From a bacterium (GTDB taxonomy: Bacteria; Lindowbacteria; 2-12-FULL-62-27): a DNA stretch of 19,425 bases. Below the pieces are notes generated by a model. That model did not search any database, was not told where the DNA came from, and worked only from the letters and a program-made list of their open reading frames with translations. This document shows, one piece after another, positions 1,910 to 19,310 of the stretch (positions are counted from its first letter, which is position 1; every line of letters begins with the position of its first letter). The position numbers and the translations under genes are program-made. The stretch is taken from contig JACQOF010000144.1 of the NCBI GenBank assembly GCA_016202645.1, positions 1-19,425 of the forward strand, given 5' to 3'.

Positions 1910-2578
1910 ATGATCCGGAACGAACTGCCGCTCTTCCCACTGCCGAACGTCGTTCTGTTCCCGGACGTCATTTTGCCCCTCCACATTTTCGAGCCTCGGT
2001 ACCGGCTGATGGTGGACGAGGCCCTCCAGACCCACAAAAAAATCGGGATGGTGCTTTTGAAGAAAGGCTGGGAGCAGAACTACGAACAGAACCCGGACAT
2101 CTTCGACGTCGGATGCATGGGCCAGATCGTCGGGCACGAGCGACTCGAGGACGGACGGTTTAATATTCTACTGAAAGGCGTGAACCGATTCAGCGTCGAC
2201 CGCATCGTCGTGCCGGCGCCGTACCGGCAGGCGAAAGTGGCCCTGCTCGAAGACCGGGTGGAGGATCTGTCGGAGGAGGATCAGGACAAGACCAAACGAA
2301 ACATCGCCGAGGCTTCGGCCGCCATCCCGGAATATTTCGTCTACAACAAAATGCGCCTGGGCCGGGCCCCGGTCGATTTCTCGGCGCCCCTGCCCACCGT
2401 GATCGACACCCTCGCCTACTATCTGGCCATCGACCCCTACGACAAACAGCCGATCCTGGAAGAAACGATTGTCGGACGGCGCGCGCAACTTCTCTACGAA
2501 AAAATGATATCGCTCCTCCAGCTCAAAAACGTCCTCGGAAATTCCGGCCACGCAGGCGGCGACCCGGACCTGAATTAA
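1910..2578 (+). CDS. Stand-alone Lon N-terminal (substrate-binding) domain protein
   Basis: The 222-residue protein opens with NELPLFPLPNVVLFPDVILP followed by LHIFEPRYR. This is the signature start of the Lon protease N-terminal domain (PF02190 type). The domain fills most of the protein, and there is no AAA+ ATPase or Ser-Lys protease domain, so it is not a protease. Small proteins of this kind are widespread and poorly characterised; binding of unfolded or specific proteins is inferred only from the Lon homology. The ATG follows the ade stop after one base, which suggests operon membership without showing a functional link. Its TAA overlaps the stop of the convergent hydrolase gene. Confidence 0.88.
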   Translation: MIRNELPLFPLPNVVLFPDVILPLHIFEPRYRLMVDEALQTHKKIGMVLLKKGWEQNYEQNPDIFDVGCMGQIVGHERLEDGRFNILLKGVNRFSVDRIVVPAPYRQAKVALLEDRVEDLSEEDQDKTKRNIAEASAAIPEYFVYNKMRLGRAPVDFSAPLPTVIDTLAYYLAIDPYDKQPILEETIVGRRAQLLYEKMISLLQLKNVLGNSGHAGGDPDLN

Positions 2579-3906
2579 CCGGCGGGGGCCACCACCAGCC
2601 TCCGGAGGATCGCTTCGTAGGCGCGGATGGCCGTGTCGAGGTCGGCCAGACGGTTGTGCTCGTTGGGGCTGTGGATGTTTCCTTCGGATTGGCCCGGGCC
2701 GAAGACGAGCGCGGTACAGCGCTGGCCGAAAAGGGCCGCTTCGGTCGATCCCATCTTCGTGACATATTCCGGCTCGATGCCCGACTCCCTCAGCGCTCCG
2801 AAAACGCTTTCGACGTGCCAGGCGGAACTGGTTTCGAAAAACGAAGCATCCTTCCGGATCACCCGGCCCGCGGCCGGCACGCGGGCGAAGGCAGCCTCCG
2901 GAAAAGATTCCGCCTCCTCCCAGTAGCGGCTGTCGAATTCAAATATAAACGCGTTCTCATCCGCGCTCGTCCGCGCCGTGACGCAGGCCCAGGACGTTTC
3001 CGGAGAAATTTGCCGGCGCTCCTCCCGCAGGGCGCGCCAGAAGGGCCACAGGCCGGAGGTATCCCGCAAGTCCACCCGGCCCGCGTGCGTGGAAACCACC
3101 GCTCGGCCTCGGACGGCGGCAAGCAGAGCAGCCGATCTCGGAGCAACGACGACGCATCGGTCGGGGATGATGTTCAGGAGGTGGCCGCCGTCGATGTGAA
3201 GACGATCCGGCGGAACATCCAGGCCGGCCATGAGGTCCAGCGCCTGTTCGATGGCGTTGACGCCCTTGTGCGGCGTGCTCGAATGGGCCGCCTTGCCCGA
3301 AAATTCCACTTTGACGAGATCCGATGCGGCCTGAGCCGGCGGCGCCGCGACCTTGAAGGCATAACACCCGCGGCCCTTGTGGCGGTTGACGAGTTTTAAA
3401 CTCGTCGGCTCGCCCACCAGCGCGAAATCGAGCTGGCCCGTGTAATTCGCGAGAAACGCGCGCGCGCCGATCAGGCCGACTTCCTCGCCGAACGTGCCCA
3501 GCAGAATAAACCGGTTGCAGAAGCGTTTACCCACGGTCGGCTCCAGGGCCTTCAGCTTGCACAGAAAATCGAGTTTCACGTCCGCCGTGCCCAAACCGTA
3601 AATGTTTCCGTCCCGGACGGTCGCCCGGAAGGGATCGCCGCCTGTTTCGGTCCAGCGCGCGGGGTCGCCCGGCGAAACGGTATCGAGATGTGTGTCGAAA
3701 AGAATCACGTCCGGGCCGCCGCCCTTCTCGGCAATCAGGTTCACGCCGCGATAGCCGTCGGCATCAACAGGCTCCGTGCGGACCTTGAGATCAAATTTGT
3801 CCAGAATGCCTTTCAGGAACTCCACATATTCGTCATTCCCGTGGCTCGAGGTCGAATCGATCGATATCGCCCGCCGACACGCCTCCCGAAAATCAAATCC
3901 GCTCAT
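2575..3906 (-). CDS. M20-family metallohydrolase (ArgE/DapE/aminoacylase-like)
   Basis: This is a 443-residue cytoplasmic zinc hydrolase of the M20 (acetylornithine deacetylase / succinyl-diaminopimelate desuccinylase / carboxypeptidase) family. From the start at 3906, the visible metal and catalytic residues are H73 and D75 in FDTHLDTV, D109 in GLGTADVK, the EE pair 141-142 in GTFGEEVG, E166 in LVGEPT and a C-terminal His near 412 in IHSPNEHN. A dimerisation (lid) domain lies between. The usual GxxDMKGG motif reads GTADVKLD, so it is divergent but keeps the Asp. Substrate cannot be assigned; an N-acyl amino acid or short peptide is the family expectation. I chose the ATG at 3906 over the longer start at 3978. 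It has a GGGAG motif 4 bases upstream and the same position in a leader shared with the gene at 7917. It is divergent from the metallo-beta-lactamase gene. Confidence 0.87.
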   Translation of the reverse strand: MSGFDFREACRRAISIDSTSSHGNDEYVEFLKGILDKFDLKVRTEPVDADGYRGVNLIAEKGGGPDVILFDTHLDTVSPGDPARWTETGGDPFRATVRDGNIYGLGTADVKLDFLCKLKALEPTVGKRFCNRFILLGTFGEEVGLIGARAFLANYTGQLDFALVGEPTSLKLVNRHKGRGCYAFKVAAPPAQAASDLVKVEFSGKAAHSSTPHKGVNAIEQALDLMAGLDVPPDRLHIDGGHLLNIIPDRCVVVAPRSAALLAAVRGRAVVSTHAGRVDLRDTSGLWPFWRALREERRQISPETSWACVTARTSADENAFIFEFDSRYWEEAESFPEAAFARVPAAGRVIRKDASFFETSSAWHVESVFGALRESGIEPEYVTKMGSTEAALFGQRCTALVFGPGQSEGNIHSPNEHNRLADLDTAIRAYEAILRRLVVAPAG

Positions 3907-3977
3907 CCCGCTCCCACCCATCCCGGGTTTCGCGGGATTCCCTCCATCCAGTCGGTCATAAGAGCGGAACTCTACCA
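3903..3977 (-). promoter_or_regulatory. Extended -10 promoter plus 57-base leader mini-ORF, copy A
   Basis: On the minus strand an extended -10 (TGG-TAGAGT, plus-strand 3969-3977) lies 9 bases before an ATG at 3959. That ATG opens an 18-codon ORF reading MTDWMEGIPRNPGWVGAG, whose TGA (3905-3903) overlaps the hydrolase ATG (3906-3904) as ATGA. The segment includes the GGGAG ribosome-binding motif of the downstream gene. It matches copy B (7914-7970) without gaps at 49 of 57 positions. It may be a translationally coupled leader peptide, or a repeat that supplies a promoter and ribosome-binding site. Confidence 0.6.
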
Positions 3978-3991
3978 CACGGAAGGCCGGC

Positions 3992-4021
3992 TTGACATCA
4001 TTTTCCGGTTCGGCCTAAACT
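3992..4021 (+). promoter_or_regulatory. Candidate promoter of the metallo-beta-lactamase-fold gene
   Basis: A perfect TTGACA (3992-3997) is followed after 18 bases by TAAACT (4016-4021). The -10 ends only 6 bases before the ATG at 4028, which would put the transcript start at or next to the start codon. No ribosome-binding motif is visible, consistent with a leaderless mRNA. The -35 region is shared with the divergent leader. Confidence 0.5.
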
Positions 4022-4027
4022 CCCGCC

Positions 4028-4651
4028 ATGATCGTCAAATCTCTCCCGGTGGGACCGATGCTGAACCGCTGTTATCTCATCGTCTGCGAGGAAACCCGGC
4101 AGGCCGCGCTGGTCGATCCGGCGTGGGAGGAGGATACGCTCATCCGGGAGATCAAATCCCACAAGGCGTTTCTCCAGTACCTGCTCTGCACCCACGGCCA
4201 CGGGGACCACGTGAACCTGGTGCCGAGCCTGCTCAAGGCATTTCCCGAAGCCAAAGCGGTCTTTCACAAGGACGAGCGGATATCCGCGCCCAAAGAGCGG
4301 TCGGTGCGGCTCACCGACGGCGACCGGCTGAAACTCGGCAACCTGGACATCCTCGCGATGCACACGCCCGGACACACGCCCGGCGGCGTTACGTACATCG
4401 CCGGTGATTACGCTTTTTTCGGGGACACGATTTTTTGCGGAGAGGACTGCGGAAGGGTCGATTTCTACAAGGACGGCCCCAGAGACATGGTCGCATCCCT
4501 CGGAAAAATCCGTCAGCTTCCAGATCACCTCACGGTTTGTTCAGGGCACAAGTACGGCCGGTTCGAGACAACAACGATGAAATTCGAAAAAGAAAACAAC
4601 GCGGCGCTGAAGTGCCGAACCCTGGAGGAATTTCTGGAGCTTAAGGGTTAG
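4028..4651 (+). CDS. Metallo-beta-lactamase-fold hydrolase (glyoxalase II-like)
   Basis: The 207-residue protein carries the full metal-binding set of the MBL superfamily. THGHGDH is at 55-61 (H56, H58, D60, H61), a His in MHTPGHTPGG near 118, an Asp in FFGDTIF near 137, and a final His in CSGHKYGR near 177. The size and the TPGHTPGG and SGHKYG motifs place it with the glyoxalase II-like / thioester hydrolase branch rather than true beta-lactamases. Hydrolysis of a glutathione-type or other thioester is the family expectation; the substrate is unknown. No signal peptide is visible, so it is cytoplasmic. It is a single-gene plus-strand unit between a divergent hydrolase and a convergent fusion gene. 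Confidence 0.9.
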   Translation: MIVKSLPVGPMLNRCYLIVCEETRQAALVDPAWEEDTLIREIKSHKAFLQYLLCTHGHGDHVNLVPSLLKAFPEAKAVFHKDERISAPKERSVRLTDGDRLKLGNLDILAMHTPGHTPGGVTYIAGDYAFFGDTIFCGEDCGRVDFYKDGPRDMVASLGKIRQLPDHLTVCSGHKYGRFETTTMKFEKENNAALKCRTLEEFLELKG

Positions 4652-4671: not shown

Positions 4672-4743
4672 CGTCATTCCCGCGAAAGCGGGAATCCAGT
4701 CCACACTGCGATAATCTGGATTCCCGCTTTCGCGGGAATGACG
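4672..4743. repeat. Long perfect palindrome with 28-base arms, copy 1
   Basis: Bases 4672-4699 are the exact reverse complement of 4716-4743, with a 16-base spacer. Each arm is itself a small hairpin (ATTCCCGC, loop, GCGGGAAT). It fills the gap between convergent genes and could act as a two-way transcription stop or mRNA stabiliser, although no T-run follows. The same arm occurs again at 19311-19338. The core resembles widespread ATTCCC...GGGAAT intergenic repeats such as neisserial dRS3. Confidence 0.9.
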
Positions 4744-4768
4744 GAGAGGGATGAATAGTAACGCTTTT

Positions 4769-7090
4769 TCAACAATTCGTGTGCAGGATTTTTCCCGACG
4801 CGGCGCCGATATTCGCGCACCCCGTCAGCAGCATCGCCTTTCTCAGCTCTTTTTCCATCCGCCGCACATACAAGCTGACGCCTTCGGCCTTGCCGCCCAC
4901 CGCCGCGATCATGAGGGGGCGGCCGACGAGGACCGCGTCGGCGCCGAGCGCGAGGGCCTTGAGCGCGTCGTCGCCGGTGCGGATGCCGCCATCAACAAAA
5001 ATTTTCATCGAACGCCGGGCGTTTTGGCCCTTTAACGTCTTCACGTGCGACGCGATGCCGGGAAGGACAGACGCCGTTGAGGGCATATGATCGAGAACGC
5101 GGCCGCCGTGGTTGGAGACGACAATCGCCGAGGCGCCGACTTTCATCGCCAGCTCCGCCTGGTCCGGGGTCATGATGCCTTTCAGAATGAACGGACGGCC
5201 CGAATAGCGGATGTAGTCCCGGAGCTGGTCGGGCGTCTTGGCTTCGACCGCCACGCCCTTTTTCTGCATTGTGATGAAATTCGCCGCGTCGATGTCCATC
5301 CCGACGGCCGGACAACCGACCTCGCGCGCGAGGTCAAAGCGTTTGCGGAGTTCCTCCTCGTCCGCGCGGGGCTTGAAGATCGGGATGGCCCAGCCGTCGT
5401 AGCGGGCGGCGACGTCGAGGATGATCTGGTATTTGTTGATGGAAGCGCCGTCGCCGACCATCGGGATGCATCCGGTGTCGGCCATGCCGCGGATGAAATA
5501 ATCGGTGAATTCCTCCTCCGTCAAAACACCGCCCATGTTCGTGCTCGTGCCGGTCATCGGCGCGGCCAGGATCGGGTGTCGAAGGGTCAGCCCGAAAAGT
5601 TCTATTTCGGAATGGACTTCCTTGACCTCGTGGATCGTCCGAAGCTCGAGCCGCAGCTGCCGCCATGCGCGGAAATTGTCCATGAAGGTCTCGCCCGTGC
5701 CGACGCCGCCCACGCCGGGCACCTGACCCGCGCACGCCTTGCCGTCGCACTCCTTGCAGGCGGTACACACGGCGCCGAACCGGGCGCGCGCGGCGGTCCG
5801 GATCTCATCCCAGCCGAGAACGGTCGGCGCGCCGATCTCGATCTGGATCCGGGCAAGCGCTTCCTCAGCCAGACGCAGAGCCGATTCCCGGTCCGGACCC
5901 ACCACGATCACGTGGCCGGCTTTGTCGAGGTTGGATTTCGGCGGAGATATCAGATCGCCTTCCTTGACGTCGACAAACAACTCCACCACGCCCGGCATCC
6001 GGCGGACTTCCTCCTGGCCGCCGACGGAAAGGACCCGGCCGGGTGGAGGGATGATCGACCGCTCGACGGAAACCTGCTGGAGCGTGGGGCGAAGATCGGA
6101 CGGCGTCCGGCCGAGCGCGATCTCAATCGCCGCGCGGATGATCTCGACGCCGGTGGCGGCCGGACACGTGTAGCCGGACATGAACCCTCCGGAAAGACGG
6201 GCCGCCAGCTCGCCGATTTTCGGGCCGGCCGGCGTCAATTTGATGTCCGATTTCGCGGCGCCCTGCGTGATGCCCAGAGCCCGGCAGCCCTGCACCGTCA
6301 GCGCCACCGCGGCGTCCTGCTGGTCGGGCGGTTTGGCCGACGGCAGGATGTGGCCGATTTCGACGAAGTAAGGCGGGTGGCGGATGATGCGGTCGGCCAC
6401 CACGCTGAAGACGGGGCGGCCGTCGAAAATCAGGACGTCAATCGACAGCTCGTCCCCGGGCATGAACTCCTCCAGGATCACGCCGCCCGATGTCGACGCG
6501 GCCTTGGCCTCCCGAAAGGCCGTCTCCAGCTCCCATTCCTTTGAAATTTTTTTCACGCCGCGCGCGCCCATGTTGTCCGCGGGCTTGATCACCGCCGGGA
6601 GGCCGATATCCGCGAGAGCCATTTCGGCCTCGGAGAGGGTCCACACGCCGCAGAATTTCGGCGAGGGGACGCCGGCCGACAGAAAAGCGCTCCGCATTTT
6701 GATTTTGTCCGTCGCGCGTTCCGCCGCGTCAGTCCGGATGCCCGGCAGGCCCAGGGCTTCGCAGACCGCCGCGACGGTCACCGAAGCGTCGGTGCCGACG
6801 GTGAGGCATCCCCGGATCGGATACTTGGCGTGCGTTTCGCGGGCGATCCGGATGGTGCCCTGGACGTCCCGCGTGCTCATGACGACGGGAATGTCCGCGA
6901 GCGTCATGCCGGGGGCGTGGGGATTGTAGTCGGTGACGACCGTTCTGAGCCCCATCGCGCGGGCGATTTTGATGGCCGGTACCTGCATGACCCCGGCGCC
7001 GATGATGAGCAGGGTCTGGGTCTTTTCGGTCTCGGCATAGCGGCTTTCCGGGAGCGTGAATTTACGGCTTTGTTTTAACGCGCTGCGCAT
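4769..7090 (-). CDS. ATP-grasp ligase / Cys-motif / FMN-dependent alpha-hydroxy-acid dehydrogenase fusion
   Basis: The protein has 773 residues in three parts. Residues 27-420 form a carbamoyl-phosphate-synthase or biotin-carboxylase-like ATP-grasp ligase: a Rossmann-like start LLIIGAGVMQVPAIK, lysine 169 in VIKPADNMGARGV, and Mg/ATP residues around E294 in GELAARLSGG. Residues 442-453 hold the motif C-x2-C-x2-C-x4-C, which could bind a metal or Fe-S cluster. Residues 454-773 match the lactate oxidase / glycolate oxidase / IPP isomerase FMN barrel: K637 in ILKGIMTP, H661 in VSNHGGRVLDH and VDGGIRTG, then LGADAVLVGRP. The Cys motif plus barrel resembles stand-alone 'alpha-hydroxy-acid oxidizing' proteins of anaerobes, so the unusual part is the N-terminal ligase. 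The reaction is unknown; ATP-driven activation coupled to flavin oxidation or reduction is inference. The start at 7090 is the only ATG before the Rossmann segment. It lies 38 bases after the aldolase, probably in the same transcript. Confidence 0.88.
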   Translation of the reverse strand: MRSALKQSRKFTLPESRYAETEKTQTLLIIGAGVMQVPAIKIARAMGLRTVVTDYNPHAPGMTLADIPVVMSTRDVQGTIRIARETHAKYPIRGCLTVGTDASVTVAAVCEALGLPGIRTDAAERATDKIKMRSAFLSAGVPSPKFCGVWTLSEAEMALADIGLPAVIKPADNMGARGVKKISKEWELETAFREAKAASTSGGVILEEFMPGDELSIDVLIFDGRPVFSVVADRIIRHPPYFVEIGHILPSAKPPDQQDAAVALTVQGCRALGITQGAAKSDIKLTPAGPKIGELAARLSGGFMSGYTCPAATGVEIIRAAIEIALGRTPSDLRPTLQQVSVERSIIPPPGRVLSVGGQEEVRRMPGVVELFVDVKEGDLISPPKSNLDKAGHVIVVGPDRESALRLAEEALARIQIEIGAPTVLGWDEIRTAARARFGAVCTACKECDGKACAGQVPGVGGVGTGETFMDNFRAWRQLRLELRTIHEVKEVHSEIELFGLTLRHPILAAPMTGTSTNMGGVLTEEEFTDYFIRGMADTGCIPMVGDGASINKYQIILDVAARYDGWAIPIFKPRADEEELRKRFDLAREVGCPAVGMDIDAANFITMQKKGVAVEAKTPDQLRDYIRYSGRPFILKGIMTPDQAELAMKVGASAIVVSNHGGRVLDHMPSTASVLPGIASHVKTLKGQNARRSMKIFVDGGIRTGDDALKALALGADAVLVGRPLMIAAVGGKAEGVSLYVRRMEKELRKAMLLTGCANIGAASGKILHTNC

Positions 7091-7128: not shown

Positions 7129-7917
7129 CTACCTGTTTTTTCGGCCGCGCAGTTTCGTAATCCGGTTGGCGAGGGCGGCGACCGCGCGGCGGCCGGAGAG
7201 TTTCTGGTGTTCGAGGACGGCGATTTCAAAGTCGAGAATACTGCGGATCGCGGCGGGAAGATCCGCGCAGGCGGCGGGATCGAAACCGACGTCGCGCGTG
7301 TTGAGAAGCGTCGGCGCGCTGGTCTCCATCAGCCGCTGGGCGTCCTTCGGCGTGATCCGTCCGCCAACCGAAACTTCGATTTCACGCGATTTCGCGGCAG
7401 TGACCACGGCCGCCACCCGGCTCATCACTTCGGGATGGTCCGGGTCCTTGCCGAGCGACCGGCACAGGTCCGTCCGGCCGACGGTGATCTGGTCGATTTC
7501 GGAAATTTCGGGCTGGGCAAAAATCCGGTCGAGGTTCCGGCAGGCGGTCTCGGTCTCGATGTTGATCTGCTTGCGGACAAACCCGTAGACTTTCTCCCCC
7601 AGCTCCTCCCGCAGGCTCTCGATGAATTTTTTCAGGGAATAGGGGGATTCGATCATCGGCGCCACCACGCCCCGGCAGCCGATGTCGACGACCGCCCGCA
7701 TGTCCTGCCGGGCCTCGGGCCCGCCGATCTTGGCGGAGAGCGGCAAAATATCGTGAAACAAACGGTGAACGGTGCGGATCTCCCCGTAACTCATCCCCGC
7801 ATCCTCCGTTGAAACCTTCAGCGACACTGCCCCGCAATCCTCGGCGAGCGCCACCAGCTGTTCCCGGAGAACCTCCTCCTCGTCCAACCAAACCCGCTCC
7901 CCCACTCGAACATTCAT
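7129..7917 (-). CDS. HpcH/HpaI-type aldolase (citrate lyase beta-like)
   Basis: The 262-residue TIM-barrel protein has the motifs of the HpcH/HpaI aldolase / CitE family: K63 in LSAKIGGPEAR, E90 in GVVAPMIESPYS, E121 in INIETETA (Mg ligand) and D150 in TVGRTDL (Mg ligand). These enzymes cleave or form C-C bonds on 2-keto-acid or acyl-CoA substrates; the substrate is not predictable here. The ATG at 7917 sits inside a leader cassette shared with the hydrolase at 3906. The gene is upstream of the ATP-grasp/FMN fusion on the same strand with a 38-base gap, so the two enzymes plausibly act in one pathway. No signal peptide or membrane segment is visible. Confidence 0.82.
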   Translation of the reverse strand: MNVRVGERVWLDEEEVLREQLVALAEDCGAVSLKVSTEDAGMSYGEIRTVHRLFHDILPLSAKIGGPEARQDMRAVVDIGCRGVVAPMIESPYSLKKFIESLREELGEKVYGFVRKQINIETETACRNLDRIFAQPEISEIDQITVGRTDLCRSLGKDPDHPEVMSRVAAVVTAAKSREIEVSVGGRITPKDAQRLMETSAPTLLNTRDVGFDPAACADLPAAIRSILDFEIAVLEHQKLSGRRAVAALANRITKLRGRKNR

Positions 7918-8007
7918 CCCGCTCCTCCCCCTCCCTGGCCTCGCGGGATTCCCTTCATCCCGTCGGTCATGCGGGGGATTCTACCAGTGGGACACAAATA
8001 TTTTCAA
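7914..8007 (-). promoter_or_regulatory. Promoter plus 57-base leader mini-ORF, copy B
   Basis: On the minus strand TTGAAA (plus-strand 8002-8007), an 18-base spacer and an extended -10 TGG-TAGAAT (7978-7986) form a good promoter. The -10 ends 7 bases before an ATG at 7970. That ATG opens an 18-codon ORF reading MTDGMKGIPRGQGGGGAG, whose TGA (7916-7914) overlaps the aldolase ATG (7917-7915). Length, start, stop and overlap are identical to copy A. All 8 differences between the copies change the encoded residue, so a conserved peptide is not supported by this pair alone. Confidence 0.65.
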
Positions 8008-8132: not shown

Positions 8133-8209
8133 GTGTGCGCCCGGCTGGGCGCATCCATATTGCAGCCCCCCTCCCGAAAAGCTACCCTGCCGAAGTGAAG
8201 AATTTTCCC

Positions 8210-8737
8210 ATGATGCTGGTGACAGGCGGTGTATCCAGCGGTAAAAGCGAATTTGCCGAAAAAAAGGCGGCGGCGTTCGGCCGACGCGTTGTCTATCTGG
8301 CCACTGCCGTCGCCACGCCGTCAAAGGACGCGGAATTGCGGCGAAAAATCGCGGTCCACCAGGCCCGCCGCCCGAAACACTGGCGGACGGTGGTGCTGAA
8401 CGGAACCCTTCCGGAGGATGGTCTCCGGATTCCGGCCGATGCAATCCTCTTGGACAGTCTGTCTCTTTGGATTTCGGCGAGACTGACCCGCCCGCTAACC
8501 GGCCTCAAGGCGGAGATCGGGTCGGTGATCAGGCGGCTCCGCTTATTGGCGCCCGTCATCGTGGTTTCCGACGAGGCGGGACTCGGAATGGTGCCGCTGA
8601 CCAAATCCGGCCGCCGGTTTTTGGACGCGCTGGGCCGGATCAACGCGGATGTCGCGCGCGCGGCCGATGAAGTCTTTCTCGTCGTCGCGGGCCAGCCTCT
8701 CCAGATCAAAAAACCCGGACATGCCCGCCCTCGCTGA
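8210..8737 (+). CDS. cobU: Adenosylcobinamide kinase / guanylyltransferase
   Basis: CobU phosphorylates adenosylcobinamide and transfers GMP to give adenosylcobinamide-GDP in cobalamin nucleotide-loop assembly. The P-loop TGGVSSGKSEFAE directly follows the start. IAVHQARRP holds the His expected to carry the GMP, and the C-terminal INADVARAADEVFLVVAGQP is family-typical. From the ATG at 8210 the 175 residues match the usual length of about 180. This start gives MMLVTGG, as in characterised CobU proteins. A GTG at 8195 is an alternative, and the upstream GTG at 8135 is unlikely because it would translate the post-terminator hairpin. The 3' end overlaps cobT by 17 bases. It is the first gene of the cob cluster. 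Confidence 0.93.
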   Translation: MMLVTGGVSSGKSEFAEKKAAAFGRRVVYLATAVATPSKDAELRRKIAVHQARRPKHWRTVVLNGTLPEDGLRIPADAILLDSLSLWISARLTRPLTGLKAEIGSVIRRLRLLAPVIVVSDEAGLGMVPLTKSGRRFLDALGRINADVARAADEVFLVVAGQPLQIKKPGHARPR

Positions 8738-9782
8738 ACTGATTCAAAGCGTCCGGCCGGTTTCGGACGCGTGGACCGCCCGCGCCGTCGACCGGCTGAA
8801 CCGGCTGACGAAACCGGTCGGCAGTCTCGGCAAACTGGAATCCCTGGCGGCGGCCCTCGTGCGCATCCGGGAGAGTCTGGACATTCAATTTTCCCGGAAA
8901 GTTGTCTTTACCTTCGCCGCGGATCACGGGGTGGCCGAGTCCGGCGTGAGTCTCTTTCCCCAAAGCGTCACCGGCCAGATGGTCAAAAATTTTCTGGCGG
9001 GCGGCGCCGCCGTGAACGTCCTCGCGCGATTGGCCGGCGCGGAGGTCCGGGTGATCGACGCGGGCGTGATCGAGCCGAGCGGGGCGGCGGGCCTCATCGA
9101 AAAAAGGCTGGGACCCGGCACGCTAAATTTTCTGAAGGAGAATGCCATGAGCCTGGAAAATGCCCGGCGCGCGGTGGAATGGGGCGCTGATGTTTTTCTC
9201 GACGAATTCGCCGCGCATCCGATCGATCTGGCGGGAGTCGGTGAAATGGGCATCGGCAACAGCACCTCCGCCGCCGCCGTGTTCTGCGCCCTTTTGGATA
9301 TGCCGCCGGAAAAAATCGCGGGCCGCGGCACCGGCCTGGACGACGCGGCACTCGCCAATAAGCGCCGCGTGGTGGCGGACGGACTCCGGCTGCGGCGGCC
9401 GAATCCGTCGGATCCGCTCGACGTTTTGTCCAAGGTCGGCGGTTTTGAGATCGGGCAGATGGCCGGCTGTTATATCGCCGGCGGGTCCAAACGCGTGCCG
9501 ATGCTGGTCGACGGCTTTATCTCCACCGCCGCCGCGCTCCTGGCGGAACGGATGTGTCCGGCTCTCAAACAGTATCTCTTCTTTTCGCACGCGTCGGCCG
9601 AAGGCGGCCACGCGGAAATTCTGAAACAAATCGGCGCAACGCCCCTTCTGGACCTCGACCTGCGTCTGGGTGAAGGCACCGCGGCGGCGCTGGCCATGCG
9701 GGTGCTGGAGGCGTCCGCCGCGATCTTCACGGAAATGGCGACGTTCGAATCCGCCCGAGTCGACGAGGCCGAATCGCGTTGA
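8721..9782 (+). CDS. cobT: Nicotinate-nucleotide:dimethylbenzimidazole phosphoribosyltransferase
   Basis: CobT makes alpha-ribazole phosphate from nicotinate mononucleotide and the lower-ligand base. At 353 residues it is full length. Recognisable motifs are LNRLTKPVGSLGKLE near the N-terminus, FTFAADHGVAESGVSLFP, a glycine-rich GEMGIGNSTSAAA, and the catalytic glutamate E318 in LGEGTAAALAM followed by FTEMATFESA. The ATG at 8721 lies within the end of cobU, giving a 17-base overlap, and the TGA overlaps the TTG of cobS. No dimethylbenzimidazole synthesis gene (bluB or bza type) is in this window, so the natural base cannot be inferred. Confidence 0.95.
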   Translation: MPALAELIQSVRPVSDAWTARAVDRLNRLTKPVGSLGKLESLAAALVRIRESLDIQFSRKVVFTFAADHGVAESGVSLFPQSVTGQMVKNFLAGGAAVNVLARLAGAEVRVIDAGVIEPSGAAGLIEKRLGPGTLNFLKENAMSLENARRAVEWGADVFLDEFAAHPIDLAGVGEMGIGNSTSAAAVFCALLDMPPEKIAGRGTGLDDAALANKRRVVADGLRLRRPNPSDPLDVLSKVGGFEIGQMAGCYIAGGSKRVPMLVDGFISTAAALLAERMCPALKQYLFFSHASAEGGHAEILKQIGATPLLDLDLRLGEGTAAALAMRVLEASAAIFTEMATFESARVDEAESR

Positions 9783-10570
9783 CTCCCATTCTGCGAAGCC
9801 CCCAGGAGCGCAAGCGTACACCCGGCGAAGCAGAATTCTTCAAAGCCGCACGCCTTCTCACAATCCTTCCCTTCCCCGCCGGCCGCGAACCTCCCCGCGC
9901 GTCGATCCTCATGTATTTTCCCGCGGTGGGACTGATCGTCGGGCTTCTCTTGGCCGCGCTCGCCTGGCTCCTCGGCCCCCTGCCGGCTTCCATATCCGCG
10001 CTTCTCATCGTGGCGTTCTGGATTCTCATCACACGCGGACTCCACATGGACGGCGTCAGCGATACGGCCGACGCCCTCTTTTCCGTAGCCGACCGCATCC
10101 GACGCCTCGAGATCATGCGGGATCCCCACGCCGGACCGATGGGCATGATGGCGGTGTTCCTCGTCATCCTCGGTAAAACCCTTGCGCTCTGGGAACTCGC
10201 TCCGGACCTCCGCGTCCCGGCCGTCCTTCTGGCGGCGATATACGCCCGATGGATACTCGTTCCGGCTTGCGCGCTGTTTTCGTACGCGCGGTCCGAAGGA
10301 CTTGGCGCGGCTTACATCGGCAAGGCTACCTTCGGCCACGTGGCGGCGTCGACCGCCTGCGCAGCCGGATTGGCTTACGCGTTCGGCGGGACCGCCGCGC
10401 TCCTTCTCATCCCTCTGTCGATCCTGGCGGGACTGGGCGTGGGCCTCGCCGCCAACCGCGCATTCGGCGGGATCACGGGGGACGTCCTGGGAGCGATGGT
10501 GGAAGTGACGGAACTGGCGGTCCTGCTTGGCGCGGCGTGTTTTCGCCCGGCGGGTTTGATTTGGGTATGA
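9779..10570 (+). CDS. cobS: Adenosylcobinamide-GDP ribazoletransferase (cobalamin synthase)
   Basis: CobS is an integral membrane protein that joins adenosylcobinamide-GDP to alpha-ribazole (or its phosphate). The 263-residue sequence has several hydrophobic segments, for example 43-67, 72-88, 122-136 and 186-225. It also has the acidic motif HMDGVSDTADALF (D91, D95, D98), then EIMRDPHAGPMG and GGITGDVLGA, as expected for the family. Translation starts at TTG 9779 in a TTGA overlap with the cobT stop, suggesting coupling. The first 20 residues are polar and divergent. Confidence 0.93.
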   Translation: MTPILRSPQERKRTPGEAEFFKAARLLTILPFPAGREPPRASILMYFPAVGLIVGLLLAALAWLLGPLPASISALLIVAFWILITRGLHMDGVSDTADALFSVADRIRRLEIMRDPHAGPMGMMAVFLVILGKTLALWELAPDLRVPAVLLAAIYARWILVPACALFSYARSEGLGAAYIGKATFGHVAASTACAAGLAYAFGGTAALLLIPLSILAGLGVGLAANRAFGGITGDVLGAMVEVTELAVLLGAACFRPAGLIWV

Positions 10571-11640
10571 CGGAAAAACCCTGGCACGGCGGGAATCCGC
10601 CCCCCACGCGCAATGATGTGATCGATTTTTCGTCCAATCTGCATCCCGCGCCGCCGCCGGAATCTGTCCTGCGCGCGGCCGAGGCCGGCGTGGCCCGGGC
10701 CGCCGCCTATCCGGATGCCGCCGTGCAGGAGATTCGGAAAACGCTCGCCGATAGATATGGCGTCCCGGCGTCCCAGATCTTTCTGACGGCCGGCAGTTCC
10801 GCCCTGCTTTACCTGATTGTGTCCGTTCTTCGTCCCAAGTCCGTCGTTTTGCCCGTCCCCTGTTTTTCCGAATATCCTTATCTCGCGTCGATTGCCGGCG
10901 CGCGGGTCACAGAATGCGCGTCGACCGCCGAGCGGGATTGGCAATATACACATCCGCCCGATTTTTCTCCCGGGGCGCTCGGGATCATGGCAAACCCCTG
11001 CAATCCGACGGGCCGCCTCGCCGACCCGGAATGTCTGGACCTGTGGCTTCGCGCCGCGGAAAGGTCCGGCGGTGGGCTGATTTTGGATGAAGCCTACGCC
11101 GATTTTGTCGAGAGTGGATCCGTCCTCCGCCCTGCCGATGCTCTCGGCCGCGGCTGCGCCGCGATTCTCCGGTCGCCCGCCAAATTTTTCGGCCTTCCGG
11201 GACTTCGCATCGGCGTCGGATTTTTGTCGAGGGAACTGGCCGAACGCGTTGAACGCGTTTTGCCGCCCTGGCCCATCTCCTCCCCCGCCTGCGGGGCGCT
11301 CGAGGCGATCATGGATCTTGATGCCGCCTTCCTGCGGGCCCGCGCCCGACAGATTCAAACCTGGACGGCGGCGTTCCGGAGGGCGCTCGCGTCGGTGCCG
11401 GGCCTGAAGATTTTTCCGACGGACGCTCACTATTTCCTGATGAGGCTTGTTTCATCCGATTGGGACGGATTTCGCCTCGCTGAGTCGCTCCTCGACCACG
11501 GCGTTTGGATCCGGACACGCCGCGGCATGCCCGGGCTGACGGACAGGGACGTTCGCGTATCGACGCGCCTGCCCGAGGAAAACGGCCGGCTGGTCGTGGC
11601 GCTGAAGAGCGTGACGAAAGCGGCCGGAGTTTCAGCGTGA
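10567..11640 (+). CDS. cobD: L-threonine-O-3-phosphate decarboxylase-like PLP enzyme
   Basis: This 357-residue fold-type I PLP enzyme most resembles CobD/CobC of cobalamin synthesis, which supplies (R)-1-aminopropan-2-ol phosphate for the linker. Visible features are DFSSNLHPAPPPESVL near residue 20, the PLP-phosphate and ring-binding region, D174 and Y177 in LDEAYADF, and the Schiff-base lysine K206 in SPAKFFGLPGLRIG. Histidinol-phosphate aminotransferase is the main alternative, but the position between cobS and cobQ favours CobD. The start is the ATG at 10567 in an ATGA overlap with cobS; the frame is open further upstream but overlaps cobS. The stop overlaps the next GTG. Confidence 0.88.
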   Translation: MTEKPWHGGNPPPTRNDVIDFSSNLHPAPPPESVLRAAEAGVARAAAYPDAAVQEIRKTLADRYGVPASQIFLTAGSSALLYLIVSVLRPKSVVLPVPCFSEYPYLASIAGARVTECASTAERDWQYTHPPDFSPGALGIMANPCNPTGRLADPECLDLWLRAAERSGGGLILDEAYADFVESGSVLRPADALGRGCAAILRSPAKFFGLPGLRIGVGFLSRELAERVERVLPPWPISSPACGALEAIMDLDAAFLRARARQIQTWTAAFRRALASVPGLKIFPTDAHYFLMRLVSSDWDGFRLAESLLDHGVWIRTRRGMPGLTDRDVRVSTRLPEENGRLVVALKSVTKAAGVSA

Positions 11641-13130
11641 GTTCGAACCAATCCATGAGGCCTCTCATGATCCAGGGCACCGGATCGCACGCCGGGAAAA
11701 GTTTTCTCGTCACCGCGCTCTGCCGGATTTTTCTGAACCGCGGACTCGAGGTCGCGCCCTTCAAGGCCCAGAACATGGCCCTGAATTCCGCCGCGGTGAC
11801 CGGCGGCGAGATCGGCCGCGCTCAGGCCTTGCAGGCCGCCGCGGCGCGGATTGATCCGGACGTCCGGATGAATCCACTCCTTCTTAAACCCTGCGGCGAC
11901 CGCAAGAGCCAGGCGGTCCTCCTAGGGAAACCGGCCGGGACTTTCAGCATTCGCGCGCTCGACTCGAAAAAACCCGTCTGGTTCCGGCGCATTCGCGCCG
12001 CGTATGAATCTCTGGCGCGGGAAAATCAGATGATGGTGATCGAGGGCGCCGGAAGCCCCGCGGAGATTAATTTACGCAAGTCCGACTACGCCAACATGCG
12101 GGTGGCCGCGATGGCGGACGCGGCCGTGATCCTGGTCGGCGATATCGACCGCGGCGGGGTGTTCGCGGCGCTCTATGGGAGCTATGAACTGCTGAGGCCC
12201 CGCGAGCGGGCCCGGATTCTCGGGTTTGTCATCAACAAGTTCCGGGGAGACCCGGCGCTCCTCGAAAGCGGCATCCGGTTTCTCCGGCGCAAAACCGGCA
12301 AGCCCGTTCTCGGCGTCATTCCATACGATCTTGATCTGAAACTTCCAGAAGAGGACAGCCTCGCGCTGGATAGGACCGAATTTCCTCCGGTTCGCATTGG
12401 GGGCAGGCTGGCCCTCGGACTGGTGAGGTTTCCGCGGATCGCCAATTTTACGGACTACGATCCGTTCCGAGCCGAACCCGATGTCGTTCTCCGCGACGTT
12501 TTTTCCGCTGGAGACCTCGACGGCCTCGCGGCGGTCATCCTGCCGGGATCCAAAAATGTTTTTGAGGACATCGAATTTCTTCGCTCGCGCGGACTGGCCG
12601 GCGCCCTCGAGAAAAATCGGGCGGTTCGGGTGGTCGGCATCTGCGGCGGGTATCAGATCCTGGGCCGTCGGCTGGACGATCCGGTTGGCGTAGAATCCGG
12701 CCGCCCGGCGGAGTCGACGGGACTGGGGATCCTGCCGGTCAACACCCGGTTCCACGCGGACAAAATCGTGAGGCCCGTTCGCTGGACTCACCGGCCTTCC
12801 CGGTCGGCAATTCGCGGATACGAAATTCATCATGGAAGAATCTTCTCGAACAATGGCGAACCCCGCCGCCCGATGTTTCACGGCGCCGCGGGAGTTACCG
12901 AGGGGACGCGGTCCGCGGACGGCCGGGTCTGGGGCACGCTGACCCATGGGGTCTTTGATTCGGATAAATTCCGGGCCGCTTTTCTGAATGAACTTCGCGC
13001 GGCCAACGGCCTGCCCCGGAGACCGGCCGGGCGGTTTGATGTCGAGCCCGCGATTGACCGGGCGGCGCGGCTGGTCGAATCACATCTGGATGTCGGCGCG
13101 ATTCTCCGCGCGCTGGGGAAATCGTCATGA
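11637..13130 (+). CDS. cobQ: Cobyric acid synthase (CbiP/CobQ)
   Basis: This enzyme amidates adenosylcobyrinic acid a,c-diamide at four carboxylates using glutamine and ATP. The 497-residue length is typical. An N-terminal dethiobiotin-synthetase-like domain has the loop IQGTGSHAGKSFLVTALCR and PFKAQNMALNS; FPRIANFTDYDPF follows. The GATase-1 domain has nucleophile C336 in GICGGYQILG and H437 in LTHGVFDSD. The start is GTG 11637, overlapping the stop of the cobD-like gene as GTGA. Residues 248-256 are encoded by a 27-base segment very similar to part of the hairpin inserted in cbiB (see findings). Confidence 0.94.
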   Translation: MSSNQSMRPLMIQGTGSHAGKSFLVTALCRIFLNRGLEVAPFKAQNMALNSAAVTGGEIGRAQALQAAAARIDPDVRMNPLLLKPCGDRKSQAVLLGKPAGTFSIRALDSKKPVWFRRIRAAYESLARENQMMVIEGAGSPAEINLRKSDYANMRVAAMADAAVILVGDIDRGGVFAALYGSYELLRPRERARILGFVINKFRGDPALLESGIRFLRRKTGKPVLGVIPYDLDLKLPEEDSLALDRTEFPPVRIGGRLALGLVRFPRIANFTDYDPFRAEPDVVLRDVFSAGDLDGLAAVILPGSKNVFEDIEFLRSRGLAGALEKNRAVRVVGICGGYQILGRRLDDPVGVESGRPAESTGLGILPVNTRFHADKIVRPVRWTHRPSRSAIRGYEIHHGRIFSNNGEPRRPMFHGAAGVTEGTRSADGRVWGTLTHGVFDSDKFRAAFLNELRAANGLPRRPAGRFDVEPAIDRAARLVESHLDVGAILRALGKSS

Positions 13131-14137
13131 CGGCGGCGCCGATCGCCTGCGCGGTCGCCCTCGATTGGGTTTTCGGCGATCCGCAAGTGCGCTGGCATCC
13201 GGTGCGGCTGGTCGGGCTTGCGGCGGAGTCGGCGGAACGCCTGTTGAGAAAATACGGGATGGAGGGCCGCCCCGGCGGCGGAATATTCCTGGCTTCCATC
13301 CTGGCGGTGTGCGGCCTCCCGGTGTTCCTGCTGGTGTCCCTGATCGATTCCGCCGTGCTGAAGTTTGCCGCGGAGTCTCTGATCATCTATTTCTCGATTT
13401 CCCTCCGGTCTCTCTTCGATGCCGCGGGCCGCGTTCATACGGAGCTTGCTGCCGGGAATATCGAGTCCGCGCGCCGCTCTGTCTCGGAAATCTGCGGCCG
13501 GGACACCGGCGGACAGGGAAGTCCAGCCCCCAATGCCTCAGTCTCAGAAAATTCCACGAGGGAATTTTCTCCATTGCGCATTGGGGGCGGTCTTGATGAG
13601 GCGGCGCTGACACGCGCGACGGTGGAAAGCGTCGCCGAAAACAGCGTGGACGGATTTACCGCACCGATTTTTTTCGCCGCGCTCTTCGGCCCGGCCGGCG
13701 CCTGGTTCTACCGGATCGTGAATACTCTCGATTCGATGGTTGGGTACAAGAACGAAAAATATCTCCGATTTGGATGGGCCTCCGCCCGTCTCGATGATCT
13801 TTTGAATTTGATCCCGGCTAGAATTACCGCTGTTCTCATCAGTCTCTGGGCGCCGTCTGCGGGCGGCCGGATCGGCGAAAGCTTTGTGACCCTCGCGCGC
13901 TTCGGATGCCTTCACCCGAGTCCCAACGCCGGGTGGTCGGAATCCGCCGCGGCGGGCGCGCTCGGCATCCGGCTGGGCGGCCCGTCCTTCTACGGCGGCC
14001 GGGAAGTGAGCAAACCCTGGCTGGGCACCGGCGTGCGTGTTCCGGCGCCCGAAGACATTCGCCGGGCGATGCGGCTGTCGGCCGGCGCGTCCCTGAGCTT
14101 CGCCATCCTTTTTTTGGCGATATCGAGCTGTATCTGA
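13127..14137 (+). CDS. cbiB: Adenosylcobinamide-phosphate synthase with an in-frame insertion
   Basis: CbiB is a membrane enzyme that attaches aminopropanol (phosphate) to cobyric acid. The 336-residue protein has several membrane segments (about 53-75, 80-96, 180-200, 318-334) and conserved motifs: DWVFGDPQVRWHPV, RATVESVAENSVDGFTAPIF, LDSMVGYKNEKY, WASARLDDLLNLIPAR and HPSPNAGWSESAAAGALGIRLGG. Between GRDT (124-127) and LDEAAL (156 on), where the family normally has a short junction, there are about 28 extra low-complexity residues. They are encoded by a hairpin-forming segment (13526-13588). The insertion keeps frame, so the gene is probably functional. The start overlaps cobQ by ATGA. Confidence 0.93.
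   Translation: MTAAPIACAVALDWVFGDPQVRWHPVRLVGLAAESAERLLRKYGMEGRPGGGIFLASILAVCGLPVFLLVSLIDSAVLKFAAESLIIYFSISLRSLFDAAGRVHTELAAGNIESARRSVSEICGRDTGGQGSPAPNASVSENSTREFSPLRIGGGLDEAALTRATVESVAENSVDGFTAPIFFAALFGPAGAWFYRIVNTLDSMVGYKNEKYLRFGWASARLDDLLNLIPARITAVLISLWAPSAGGRIGESFVTLARFGCLHPSPNAGWSESAAAGALGIRLGGPSFYGGREVSKPWLGTGVRVPAPEDIRRAMRLSAGASLSFAILFLAISSCI
13526..13588. repeat. Two-part palindrome inserted in frame within cbiB
   Basis: An outer perfect 11-base inverted repeat (13526-13536 with 13578-13588) encloses an inner perfect 10-base one (13546-13555 with 13561-13570) around a 5-base loop. The two helices are separated by unpaired stretches of 9 and 7 bases. It encodes most of the extra residues of CbiB and looks like a small dispersed palindromic element captured in a coding frame. 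Confidence 0.8.
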
Positions 14138-14138
14138 C

Positions 14139-15500
14139 ATGACGTCGGCACTCGTTGTTTCAGGACTTCGAAGCGGCGTCGGAAAAACCACCGTGACCCT
14201 CGGACTCATTCGGGCGTTCTCGGCGGCGGGCCTGAAAGTGGCGGCGCTGAAAGTCGGGCCTGATTTTCTCGACCCAAGCCACTACCGCGCGGCCGGCGCG
14301 GCGGTCAGCCGCAACGTCGATCCGATCCTTCAGGGAAACGCCGGTATGCGAAAAGCGTTTGCGGTCTCGGCCGGGTCCGACATCACCCTCATCGAGGGCG
14401 TGATGGGCCTGTTTGACGGACCGATTCCCGGAAAAACAACCGCCAGCACCGCCGACGTCGCGGCGCGGCTTGGAGTTCCGGTCCTGCTGGTCTGTGACGC
14501 GCGGTCCTGCGCGCAGAGCATCGCCGCCGAAATCATCGGCGCAAGGCGGCTTCTCGGCCGGACGCCGCTCCTCGGCGTGATCCTGAATTTCGTGGGCTCG
14601 AAACGGCACGCGGATCTCCTCACACGCGGCGTCCATCAGCTGGCCAAAACGCCCGTGTTGGGGTGTCTCTTCCGGGACAGTCTCACGCCCATTCCCTCCC
14701 GCCATCTGGGTCTTGTGTCCGGAATGGAAATGAAAACCACGCCCTACGAGGAATATGGCAGGGCCCTTTCAGCCGCCGTTCAAATCGACCGCCTGGCGAA
14801 TGCGGCTCGTAGCCTGAAAAAAAAGATCGGGCCGTCCGCGCCGCGCGCGTCGGGCAAAACAAACGGCGGCCGGCTCGCAGTCAGGGTCGGCATCGCCCGC
14901 GACGAGGCATTTACGTTTTATTATCCGGAATCTCTGGAGTATTTTCAGAACACCTGCGAAGAGGTGACTTTTTTTTCGCCTCTGACCGACCCGGCGCCGC
15001 CCCCCGCCGACCTCTATTATTTCGGCGGCGGCTTTCCGGAAATCTACGCCCGCCGGCTCTCCGCGAACCGGCCGTTCCGCGAGGCTCTGCGGCAAAACCT
15101 TCAGGCCGGCGCGAAGGCCTACGCGGAATGCGGGGGCCTCATGTATCTTTCGAAAGCGATCATCGCCACGGACGGCCGCGAATATCCGATGACCGATCAT
15201 CTCCCGGGATCGTGCATCATGCACAAAACCCGGCAGGCCCTCGGATACTGGCGGGCGAAAATCCGGTCGAAGTCGCTGTTTCTCGACAAAGCCGAAACGC
15301 TCGTCGGACACGAATACCACTGGTCCTCCTATGTCCCGGCGGGCCTGAAGACCATCTACCAGGCCGAAAAAATCGGTGCGCGCGGAGAGCTCAAAGACGG
15401 CGGGTGGATCTCTCAGAATACATTCGCCTCCTATCTGCACCTCTCGCCCCTCGGCAACCCCGGGTTTTTTCGGCGCCTGGTGGAGTGGGCCGAACGCTGA
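14139..15500 (+). CDS. cbiA: Cobyrinate a,c-diamide synthase
   Basis: CbiA amidates the a and c side chains of cobyrinic acid using glutamine and ATP, in the anaerobic pathway after ring contraction. At 453 residues it has the expected two domains. The N-terminal P-loop domain carries VSGLRSGVGKTTVTLGLI, KVGPDFLDPSHY and EGVMGLFDG. The C-terminal GATase-1-like domain carries YYFGGGFPEIYA and nucleophile C331 in YAECGGLMYL, and ends with GHEYHWSSY and SYLHLSPLGNP. The size and motifs fit CbiA better than the larger family of CobQ. The ATG lies one base after the cbiB stop. Confidence 0.95.
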   Translation: MTSALVVSGLRSGVGKTTVTLGLIRAFSAAGLKVAALKVGPDFLDPSHYRAAGAAVSRNVDPILQGNAGMRKAFAVSAGSDITLIEGVMGLFDGPIPGKTTASTADVAARLGVPVLLVCDARSCAQSIAAEIIGARRLLGRTPLLGVILNFVGSKRHADLLTRGVHQLAKTPVLGCLFRDSLTPIPSRHLGLVSGMEMKTTPYEEYGRALSAAVQIDRLANAARSLKKKIGPSAPRASGKTNGGRLAVRVGIARDEAFTFYYPESLEYFQNTCEEVTFFSPLTDPAPPPADLYYFGGGFPEIYARRLSANRPFREALRQNLQAGAKAYAECGGLMYLSKAIIATDGREYPMTDHLPGSCIMHKTRQALGYWRAKIRSKSLFLDKAETLVGHEYHWSSYVPAGLKTIYQAEKIGARGELKDGGWISQNTFASYLHLSPLGNPGFFRRLVEWAER

Positions 15501-16288
15501 TGTTTCTGTTCCGGTGGATGTTCAAGATCATTCTGGCAATCGTCCTCCTCTGCGGTCTGGCGTATTATCTCAGAGACGAAGCCATCCGCTGGGCGCTGCC
15601 GAAAATATCCGAAGGGAAACTCGGCGTGGAAATACGCGCCAAGTCCGTCCGGACGGAGCCGTTTCGGGGAATCGTGGAGATGAAGGGGGTCTGGATGGGA
15701 AATCCCGCGAAGTTCGGCGCCGGGCGGGTCAGCGCCTCCGGCGCCCCAAGTGCCGGCGTCTCCGACGCCGGCCGCCCGATGCTCCTGGCGGACCGGATTT
15801 ACCTCGATCTTCAAGGCATCCCGGTCCCGGGCGCGCCGACGTCGTTCGAAGCGGCGCTGTTTGACATCGAGAGGATCACGGTCATCAGAAGCGCGGACGA
15901 GAAAATCAATTGGAAATTCCTGGCGGATCATGAGGAAGAGGGGAGCGGATCCGCCGGGTCCGTCTCCACGGCCCGGCCCTCCCGCCGGTTCGACCGGCTG
16001 GATATTTCCCTGAAGGAAATCGAATGGGTCGATCACAGGAGAAACCCTCCGACGCGACTCACGATACCGGTCAAGATCGACCATCTGGTCCTGCACAACG
16101 TGACCGAGGATGACCTGGCCCGGAAAATTCTCGCGGAGGCGATGAGACGGGGCGGCGGAAAAGTCTTGAAGGAACTGCTGAACGGACAACTCCTCGACGC
16201 GCCCGACCCCCTGCTTCGCGGATCGGGCAAAGTCCTCGACAAACTCCGGCGGACGACGGACCGGCTCAAGGACAAGCTGGGGTTGTGA
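15500..16288 (+). CDS. AsmA-like single-span membrane protein of unknown function
   Basis: The 262-residue protein has a short charged N-terminus and one hydrophobic segment (about 8-23), followed by an extracytoplasmic region. KISEGKLGVEIRAKSV and RTEPFRGIVEMKGVWMGNP, then MLLADRIYLDLQGI and FDIERITVIR, resemble the repeating beta pattern of AsmA / DUF748-type envelope proteins. These are implicated in lipid transport or outer-membrane assembly. The C-terminal third is charged and helical. Nothing points to corrinoid chemistry, although the gene sits inside the cob cluster. The ATG overlaps the cbiA stop by one base (TGATG). Residues 77-94 are encoded by two hairpins (15732-15772) and look like an inserted repeat. 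I am moderately sure of the family and do not know the function. Confidence 0.7.
   Translation: MFLFRWMFKIILAIVLLCGLAYYLRDEAIRWALPKISEGKLGVEIRAKSVRTEPFRGIVEMKGVWMGNPAKFGAGRVSASGAPSAGVSDAGRPMLLADRIYLDLQGIPVPGAPTSFEAALFDIERITVIRSADEKINWKFLADHEEEGSGSAGSVSTARPSRRFDRLDISLKEIEWVDHRRNPPTRLTIPVKIDHLVLHNVTEDDLARKILAEAMRRGGGKVLKELLNGQLLDAPDPLLRGSGKVLDKLRRTTDRLKDKLGL
15732..15772. repeat. Tandem TCC-loop hairpins inserted in the AsmA-like gene
   Basis: Two perfect hairpins lie in tandem: a 5-bp stem (15732-15736 with 15740-15744) and a 9-bp stem (15752-15760 with 15764-15772), both with the loop TCC. They encode the low-complexity peptide ASGAPSAGVSDAG between two segments that read as continuous AsmA-like sequence. 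This fits an in-frame insertion of a small GC-rich palindromic repeat. Confidence 0.65.
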
Positions 16289-16311
16289 GGGATTTTTTCG
16301 GCATGTATCAT
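16283..16311 (+). promoter_or_regulatory. Candidate internal promoter before cbiC
   Basis: TTGTGA (16283-16288) and TATCAT (16306-16311) are 17 bases apart, matching consensus at 4/6 and 5/6. The -10 ends 8 bases before the cbiC ATG. This 31-base gap is the largest in the cob cluster, so cbiC and the genes after it may have their own, possibly leaderless, transcript. It is a sequence match only. Confidence 0.4.
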
Positions 16312-16319
16312 CCATCCCG

Positions 16320-16958
16320 ATGACACAGCCCAGACTGCTCGCGCCGGAGGCAATCGAGGCCGAGAGTTTCAGAATTATCGAGGAGGAACTCGGCCCGCAC
16401 GCCTTCCCCCCGCGGGAATTTACCGTCGTCCGGCGGGTCATTCACGCGACGGCCGATTTTGAATTCGCGAAAAATATCGCGTTCCACCCGGAAGCCATCG
16501 ACCGCGGCGTCGCGGCCCTCCGGGCGGGCTCGGACCTCGTGGTTGATGTCGCCATGATCCAGGCCGGCGTGTCCAAACCGGCGCTGGCCGCGTTCGGAGG
16601 GACCGTGCGGTCCTACATCACCGATCCGGACGTCGTGGAGGAGGCGCGCCGCGAGGGAATCACGCGCGCGATCGCGTCGATGCGCAAGGCCGCCCGGGAG
16701 GCGCCCGGGGCCGTCTACGCGGTGGGAAACGCGCCGACGGCGCTATTTGAAATTCTGAATCTGATTGAGGCCGGAAAAATGCGGCCGGCCCTCGTGGTCG
16801 GCGTGCCCGTCGGGTTCGTGTCGGCGGTCGAGTCCAAAGACGCCCTCATCGCGTCGGGATACCCGCACATCTCGGCGCGCGGCCGGAAAGGCGGCACGCC
16901 GGTCGCGGTCTCGATCCTGAACGCGCTCCTCGCTCTCGCCAAATCCGGTGGACGTTGA
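16320..16958 (+). CDS. cbiC: Cobalt-precorrin-8 methylmutase
   Basis: CbiC moves the C11 methyl group to C12, producing cobyrinic acid (hydrogenobyrinic acid in the aerobic counterpart CobH). The 212-residue length is usual. H42 in RRVIHATADFEFAKN is the expected catalytic histidine. DLVVDVAMIQAGVSK, GAVYAVGNAPTALFEIL, VVGVPVGFVSAVESKDAL and the terminal GRKGGTPVAVSILNALL are all clear family segments. The gene overlaps cbiD by 11 bases and sits 31 bases after the AsmA-like gene. Confidence 0.95.
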   Translation: MTQPRLLAPEAIEAESFRIIEEELGPHAFPPREFTVVRRVIHATADFEFAKNIAFHPEAIDRGVAALRAGSDLVVDVAMIQAGVSKPALAAFGGTVRSYITDPDVVEEARREGITRAIASMRKAAREAPGAVYAVGNAPTALFEILNLIEAGKMRPALVVGVPVGFVSAVESKDALIASGYPHISARGRKGGTPVAVSILNALLALAKSGGR

Positions 16959-18051: not shown

Positions 18052-18057
18052 ATCTGT

Positions 18058-19290: not shown

Positions 19291-19310
19291 TGTTACGATT
19301 CAGACATCCC

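Follow-up and report, generated by a model that had tools for sequence, protein, structure and literature searches.

The two similar 57-nt segments that precede unrelated genes in the 19,425-nt contig analysed here (hereafter the window) are very probably copies of a short, structured, non-autonomous mobile mini-repeat of Ca. Lindowbacteria, a MIRU-like and RPE-like element with a 54-nt unit that is tolerated at translational junctions. Copies of this element are dispersed, occur also in tandem, end in NTGA, form covarying hairpins and are missing from orthologous sites in related genomes. At gene boundaries they are placed in the sense orientation only, others lie in frame inside proteins, and 12-nt partial copies are found at gene starts.

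A dispersed repeat family in Ca. Lindowbacteria

Copy A (3903..3959, minus strand; 57 nt from ATGA to ATGA, with a net insert of 53 nt at 3907-3959) precedes a gene encoding an M20 family peptidase/hydrolase (2575..3906, minus strand; PF01546, 3.7e-25, and PF07687), which starts with ATGAGCGGATTT. Copy B (7914..7970, minus strand; 57 nt, with a net insert of 53 nt at 7918-7970 and a decayed inner hairpin) precedes a gene encoding an HpcH/HpaI aldolase (7129..7917, minus strand; PF03328, 2.4e-13), which starts with ATGAATGTT. The original prediction, made from the letters of the window, had recognized both host genes as unrelated and had aligned the two segments without gaps; the domain matches bear out the first point and the identity of 49 out of 57 positions (86%; 3903-3959 versus 7914-7970) the second. 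A search of the window's genome with copy B recovers copy A at E=4.6e-13, which excludes chance. Read on the minus strand, both copies run from ATGACCGAC to GGGATGA. The 18-codon ORF that had been described is also present in each of them (MTDWMEGIPRNPGWVGAG in copy A and MTDGMKGIPRGQGGGGAG in copy B), with its TGA overlapping the ATG of the M20 gene or of the aldolase gene. The gene adjoining that of the aldolase (4769-7090, minus strand) encodes a 773-aa protein in which an ATP-grasp/L-amino-acid-ligase-like half is fused to an FMN-dependent dehydrogenase half, an unusual combination of domains.

We compared the genome of the window (G000; 2.9 Mb in 146 contigs, 82% complete) with that of Ca. 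Lindowbacteria nzgw232 (G002), which belongs to the same family, and with that of another relative (G001), all genomes compared being draft assemblies with heuristic gene calls. A covariance model built from eight G000 copies detected about 11 copies in G000, 42 in G002 and three in G001; in 57 other genomes, the same search gave one weak match in one distant genome and none in the rest. The census thus goes far beyond the duplication of just two copies that had been envisaged, and the approximately 50 dispersed copies in three genomes, together with the empty orthologous sites described below, agree with the wording ‘mobile or duplicated’ of the original prediction. The exact 26-nt core was found on 12 contigs, all from Ca. 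Lindowbacteria nzgw232, in a scan of 84,980 species genomes that may omit the window's own genome, and it had no match outside of Ca. Lindowbacteria among them. The degenerate 15-mer TGACCGNCNGGATGR occurs 15, 7 and 37 times in G000, G001 and G002, respectively, versus 0, 1 and 0 times for a reversed control. A second, diverged subfamily (CCGACCGACCGGATGGAGGAAGTGCCGC...) is present in G002 (C325, C358, C117, C196 and C209) and in G001 (C27 and C17); its members often begin with CCGACC and have outer stems TGCCGC/GCGGC or GTCGC/GCGAC. A viral origin of the element was rejected, the exact 19-nt core being absent from viral contigs. A literature search of partial coverage found no publication on this repeat in the uncultured lineage Ca. 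Lindowbacteria.

The orthologues of both host genes are empty in the relatives. For the aldolase, ...GTTAGATTTGGGGT is directly joined to ATGAGTGCG in G002 (L114) and ...GCTAGAGTCGCTGT to ATGAGCCTG in G001 (L119), and the corresponding region of the window reads ...GGTAGAATCCCCCGC, then 53 nt, then ATGAATGTT. For the M20 gene, the start in G001 (L227) consists of GGCGCCGGC directly followed by ATGAGCGGTTTTGATTTC, without insert, and closely matches the ATGAGCGGATTTGATTTT of the window; this empty site lies at the matching ATGAGCGGTTTTGATTT start. The M20 gene of G002 (L101/L228) is also empty, and the sequence 5′ of this gene differs in the relatives. Orthologues of the mcm-, aroE-, gpsA-, argC-, cofH-, cofD-, pheA- and flhB-like genes that host copies in G002, named here from sequence similarity judged by eye, carry no insert either.

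Unit, fold and gene contexts of the element

The repeat unit is 54 nt long, with a 4-nt NTGA (mostly ATGA) at each end. The 5′ end is NTGA in most copies, tandem copies repeat every 54 nt and the commonest form spans 58 nt, from NTGA through ATGA. The first ATG of the 58-nt copies shares the reading frame of the host gene (54 nt being 18 codons), and most of the copies located at starts have this length, their ORF continuing into the gene. Copies A and B are one base short (53-nt insert), so that their 18-codon ORF stops on the ATGA of the gene, as does the mini-ORF of the 57-nt copy C73. A 57-nt copy at the gpsA junction of G002 likewise has an ORF that ends on the ATGATC of the gene (CCATGATC). 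The start copies that are shorter by 1 nt in G000 (A, B and C73, n = 3) may reflect selection for coupling, which we do not claim.

Partial copies of 12 nt (ATGACCGACNGG immediately before ATG) stand at gene starts whose orthologues are without them (e.g., EEVPEKA* junction, hemN-like gene); one of them reads GAAAAGGC[ATGACCGACCGG]ATGAGCGGC in G000, versus GAAAAGGC directly joined to ATGAACGGT in G001. These remnants resemble the products of a deletion from the internal GGATGA of the element to its terminal GGATGA, insertion of a short form being a possible alternative. In seven copies, including those with the rare variants GTC and GCC, the 5′ bases and the 3′ flank past the TGA are identical over at least 8 nt, and the agreement between 5′ bases and 3′ flank exceeds that of permuted pairs (permutation, p = 0.0013). 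This match points to a target duplication or to templating at the 5′ end of the element; three of the seven copies, with matches of 15-17 nt, may be truncated tandem copies.

On the strand shown, the element folds into an outer helix, in which ATCCCGC pairs with GCGGGAT, and an inner hairpin. Among 45 distinct copies, 88.5% of cells are paired, two inner pairs are each changed on both sides in 11 sequences, and the covariation score reaches 0.191, compared with 0.075 +/- 0.010 in shuffled controls and at most 0.057 in slid controls. Pairing and covariation across copies indicate that the hairpin is maintained throughout the family. Copies A and B look decayed, given their weak fold z-scores (-1.9 and -1.0, respectively). 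At the gathering threshold, Rfam contains no match to the element in the window or in L068, L077, L086, L106 and L007. A c-di-AMP riboswitch (RF00379, 71 bits) is present at positions 1453-1603 of L077 (G002:C195), near one element copy.

The contexts of 51 copies were assigned under strict rules with a heuristic hexamer gene model. The exact start and/or stop of a sense gene coincides with 21 of these copies (six stop+start junctions, nine starts and six stops), 10 are internal in sense frames, a single one is internal antisense, and the remaining 19 are other or uncertain, several of them, including copy B, being clearly at starts by homology. Boundary copies are always in sense orientation. 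The sites comprise ATGA stop/start overlaps, leaderless ATG starts, TGA stops and positions in frame inside proteins. A TANNNT motif lies 5-10 nt 5′ of the element in five copies, each of them at a start that no upstream gene overlaps, which fits an insertion into putative leaderless mRNAs. Within the window (3992-4028, plus strand), the divergent gene of a metallo-beta-lactamase-fold protein has a promoter-like TTGACA-18-TAAACT just 6 nt from its ATG, a spacing that suggests the presence of leaderless mRNA in this organism.

Eight of the internal sense copies are in frame +2 and two in frame 0, and the favoured frame encodes a hydrophilic peptide, DRRDGGNPAKSMDGRERD. One in-frame insertion reads ...DDNGD[YDRRDGGNPAKSMDGRERD]DDISDAD in G000 versus ...DDNGDD-DDLSAAD in a G001 homologue; in a G002 homologue, this linker contains an almost identical peptide. 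These proteins (L007, i.e., G000:C86, together with G002:C307 and the G001 homologues) form a multi-copy family, whose acid-rich linker bears the element at about the same place in G000 and G002, corresponding either to an old shared insertion or to repeated hits on one linker. A second palindrome in the C86 protein (CTCCGCTAAAGCTACGGAG) was dropped, as it has a single exact copy.

Mobilization and alternative explanations

It is possible, but unlikely, that the Y1 (RAYT-like) transposases encoded in these genomes mobilize the element as a palindrome of the REP type, in the same way as the nearby GTCATTCCCGCGAAAGCGGGAATCC repeats. The repeat is indeed short, forms a hairpin and prefers a short target sequence, and the three genomes contain 10, 8 and 6 matches to Y1 transposases. 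However, no element copy lies near any of the 12 Y1 loci inspected, and REPs are typically extragenic, whereas the element is found in genes and at junctions. The window contains REP-like palindromes (GTCATTCCCGCGAAAGCGGGAATCCAG) arranged as inverted pairs at 4672-4762 and 19292-19412. We counted 169 exact copies of the 25-nt palindrome in G000, 8 in G001 and one in G002; it is thus abundant in the G000 lineage only, the reverse of the distribution of the element. Links of the element to these palindromes and to the Y1 transposases were both rejected, the former for this opposite distribution across G000 and G002, the latter for the 12 element-free transposase loci. More generally, the element resembles REP/RAYT palindromes and MITEs in being non-autonomous, hairpin-forming and dispersed, but no linked RAYT gene was found among the 12 loci, the element has no evident terminal inverted repeats, and its location is not extragenic.

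A second lineage of translation-junction-seeking mini-elements, evolved independently, would go further than the mini-repeat favoured here: insertion would be targeted to stop/start overlaps, the 5′ end would copy target bases, and the element would be a portable, leaderless coupler of translation, decaying to a scar of 12 nt. We consider this reading rather improbable. Of the 505 TGA trinucleotides that the window contains, approximately 16-19 are gene boundaries by our count, and the 21 boundary copies among 51 strongly exceed this background (binomial p < 1e-15; 1.5e-18 using 16/505), but this enrichment may mostly be a survival bias; with little intergenic DNA and most insertions in coding sequences being lost, it does not prove targeted insertion. 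The original prediction had proposed to regard copies at random positions relative to gene starts as a neutral repeat; positions are in fact strongly non-random, with sense orientation at every boundary, although starts are not the exclusive site.

The element could also act in cis as a regulatory leader, with a leader peptide and an RNA switch. It would then control the M20 and aldolase genes together, perhaps within a larger regulon, and its hairpin would hide the start region of the gene until translation of the mini-ORF opens it. Such a leader is favoured by the conserved covarying hairpin, with its 3′ arm GCGGGA immediately next to the ATG, by the overlap geometry of the mini-ORF and by the marked bias of sense-oriented copies towards gene starts. 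However, the element is missing from both orthologues of both genes, it has no match to an Rfam family, and most start-located copies are 58 nt long, so that the ORF enters the gene instead of stopping on its ATG. Copies are also found in proteins, at stops, in tandem and in intergenic positions, and their hosts are functionally unrelated (homologues of pgsA, aroE, gpsA, argC, flhB, cofD and pheA, among others). We thus consider a regulatory leader very unlikely, and the earlier proposal that the cassette co-regulates two loci does not hold for a family with such hosts and with about 11 of 51 copies inside proteins.

A mobile promoter cassette, in which the -10/-35 region would have been duplicated along with the leader, is very unlikely too. 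The motif GGTAGA[A/G]T does occur immediately 5′ of both window copies, and the -10 hexamers announced 7-9 nt before the mini-ORF are there: the -10-like TAGAGT (3969..3974, minus strand) lies outside the element, 9 nt 5′ of the first ATG of copy A, and TAGAAT, extended by TGG (7978..7983, minus strand), lies 7 nt 5′ of that of copy B, with a TTGAAA -35 hexamer at 8002..8007 (minus strand) and a spacer of 18 nt. However, the similarity between A and B upstream of the mini-ORF is restricted to the region of the GGTAGA hexamer, which precedes only 2 of the 51 copies, and junction copies have coding sequence upstream. Moreover, the element-free aldolase orthologues carry TAGATT and TAGAGT 6 nt 5′ of the ATG. 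The -10 hexamer and its leaderless spacing are therefore ancestral to the aldolase gene, the repeat having been inserted between them and the ATG, and the cassette is refuted for copy B. The original prediction thus saw the repeat correctly but took a native promoter, external to the repeat and variable among copies, as part of a ‘promoter-leader cassette’. Finally, an ordinary tandem or segmental duplication of a single locus, suggested by two window copies that lie 4 kb from each other, is practically untenable, since the similarity ends at the element ends and the census refutes it with about 50 dispersed copies in unrelated contexts.

Likeness to MIRUs and RPEs

MIRUs (mycobacterial interspersed repetitive units) reportedly occupy DTGA-type sites, form tandem copies and have a length similar to that of the Lindowbacteria element. 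The latter is also a short dispersed repeat at ATGA/DTGA translational junctions, with DTGA at both ends. A 2025 review (PMC12548453, citing Supply et al. 1997) presents MIRUs as repeats with apparent mobility, whose insertion at a start codon couples their internal ORF at a -4 nt spacing and affects the gene only minimally. This -4 nt (ATGA) overlap geometry is found in copies A, B and C73 and at the gpsA junction of G002, whereas most start copies fuse with the gene instead. The Lindowbacteria element further differs from MIRUs in its phylum, in its strong covarying hairpin, in that most copies are 54 nt long with the ORF fused in frame, and in having about one fifth of its copies in frame within proteins; the comparison is one of description and geometry. 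RPEs (Rickettsia palindromic elements), according to a review (PMC10969869; Ogata et al. 2000, 2002), are in-frame insertions encoding a conserved peptide. Like them, the Lindowbacteria element is a small hairpin repeat that lies in frame inside unrelated proteins and adds a conserved peptide. It is shorter (about 54 nt, 54-58, versus about 150), its commonest site is a gene start or stop boundary, and it comes from an unrelated lineage: the RPE family of Rickettsia consists of elements of about 150 bp in Rickettsiales, whereas the exact core is present in Ca. Lindowbacteria only. By analogy, the Lindowbacteria family would work like both MIRUs and RPEs; we do not claim membership of either, the length and lineage of RPEs being different.

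For the mini-repeat favoured here, we propose that a separate factor moves the element and that its insertions are mostly retained at sites where they are compatible with translation. Inserts of 54 nt would add 18 codons in frame, as an N-terminal or an internal peptide. With 53 nt, the length found in copies A and B, the result would be a leaderless ORF of 18 codons with a stop that overlaps the ATG of the gene, and ribosomes ending this mini-ORF could then initiate again on the native protein, in the manner suggested for MIRUs. From their sequence, copies A and B are thus candidates for translational coupling. The ‘translational-coupling device’ of the original prediction stands as far as geometry is concerned, for the 57-nt copies only, and the coupling itself is an inference. 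These observations suggest that the strategy of MIRUs (a repeat in a 4-base gene overlap) and that of RPEs (insertion in frame inside proteins) can share one element, and that such elements exist beyond mycobacteria and Rickettsia. The approximately 50 copies and the empty sites in sister genera form a natural series for insertion, translational tolerance and decay, and start codons and N-termini are easily misannotated in these genomes.

From about 8135 to 19290 (plus strand), the window carries an apparent cobalamin biosynthesis cluster, recognized by eye. It has many ATGA or TTGA starts that overlap or abut the preceding stop (e.g., at 13127, 14139, 18058 and 9779), and these starts are many potential target sites for the element.
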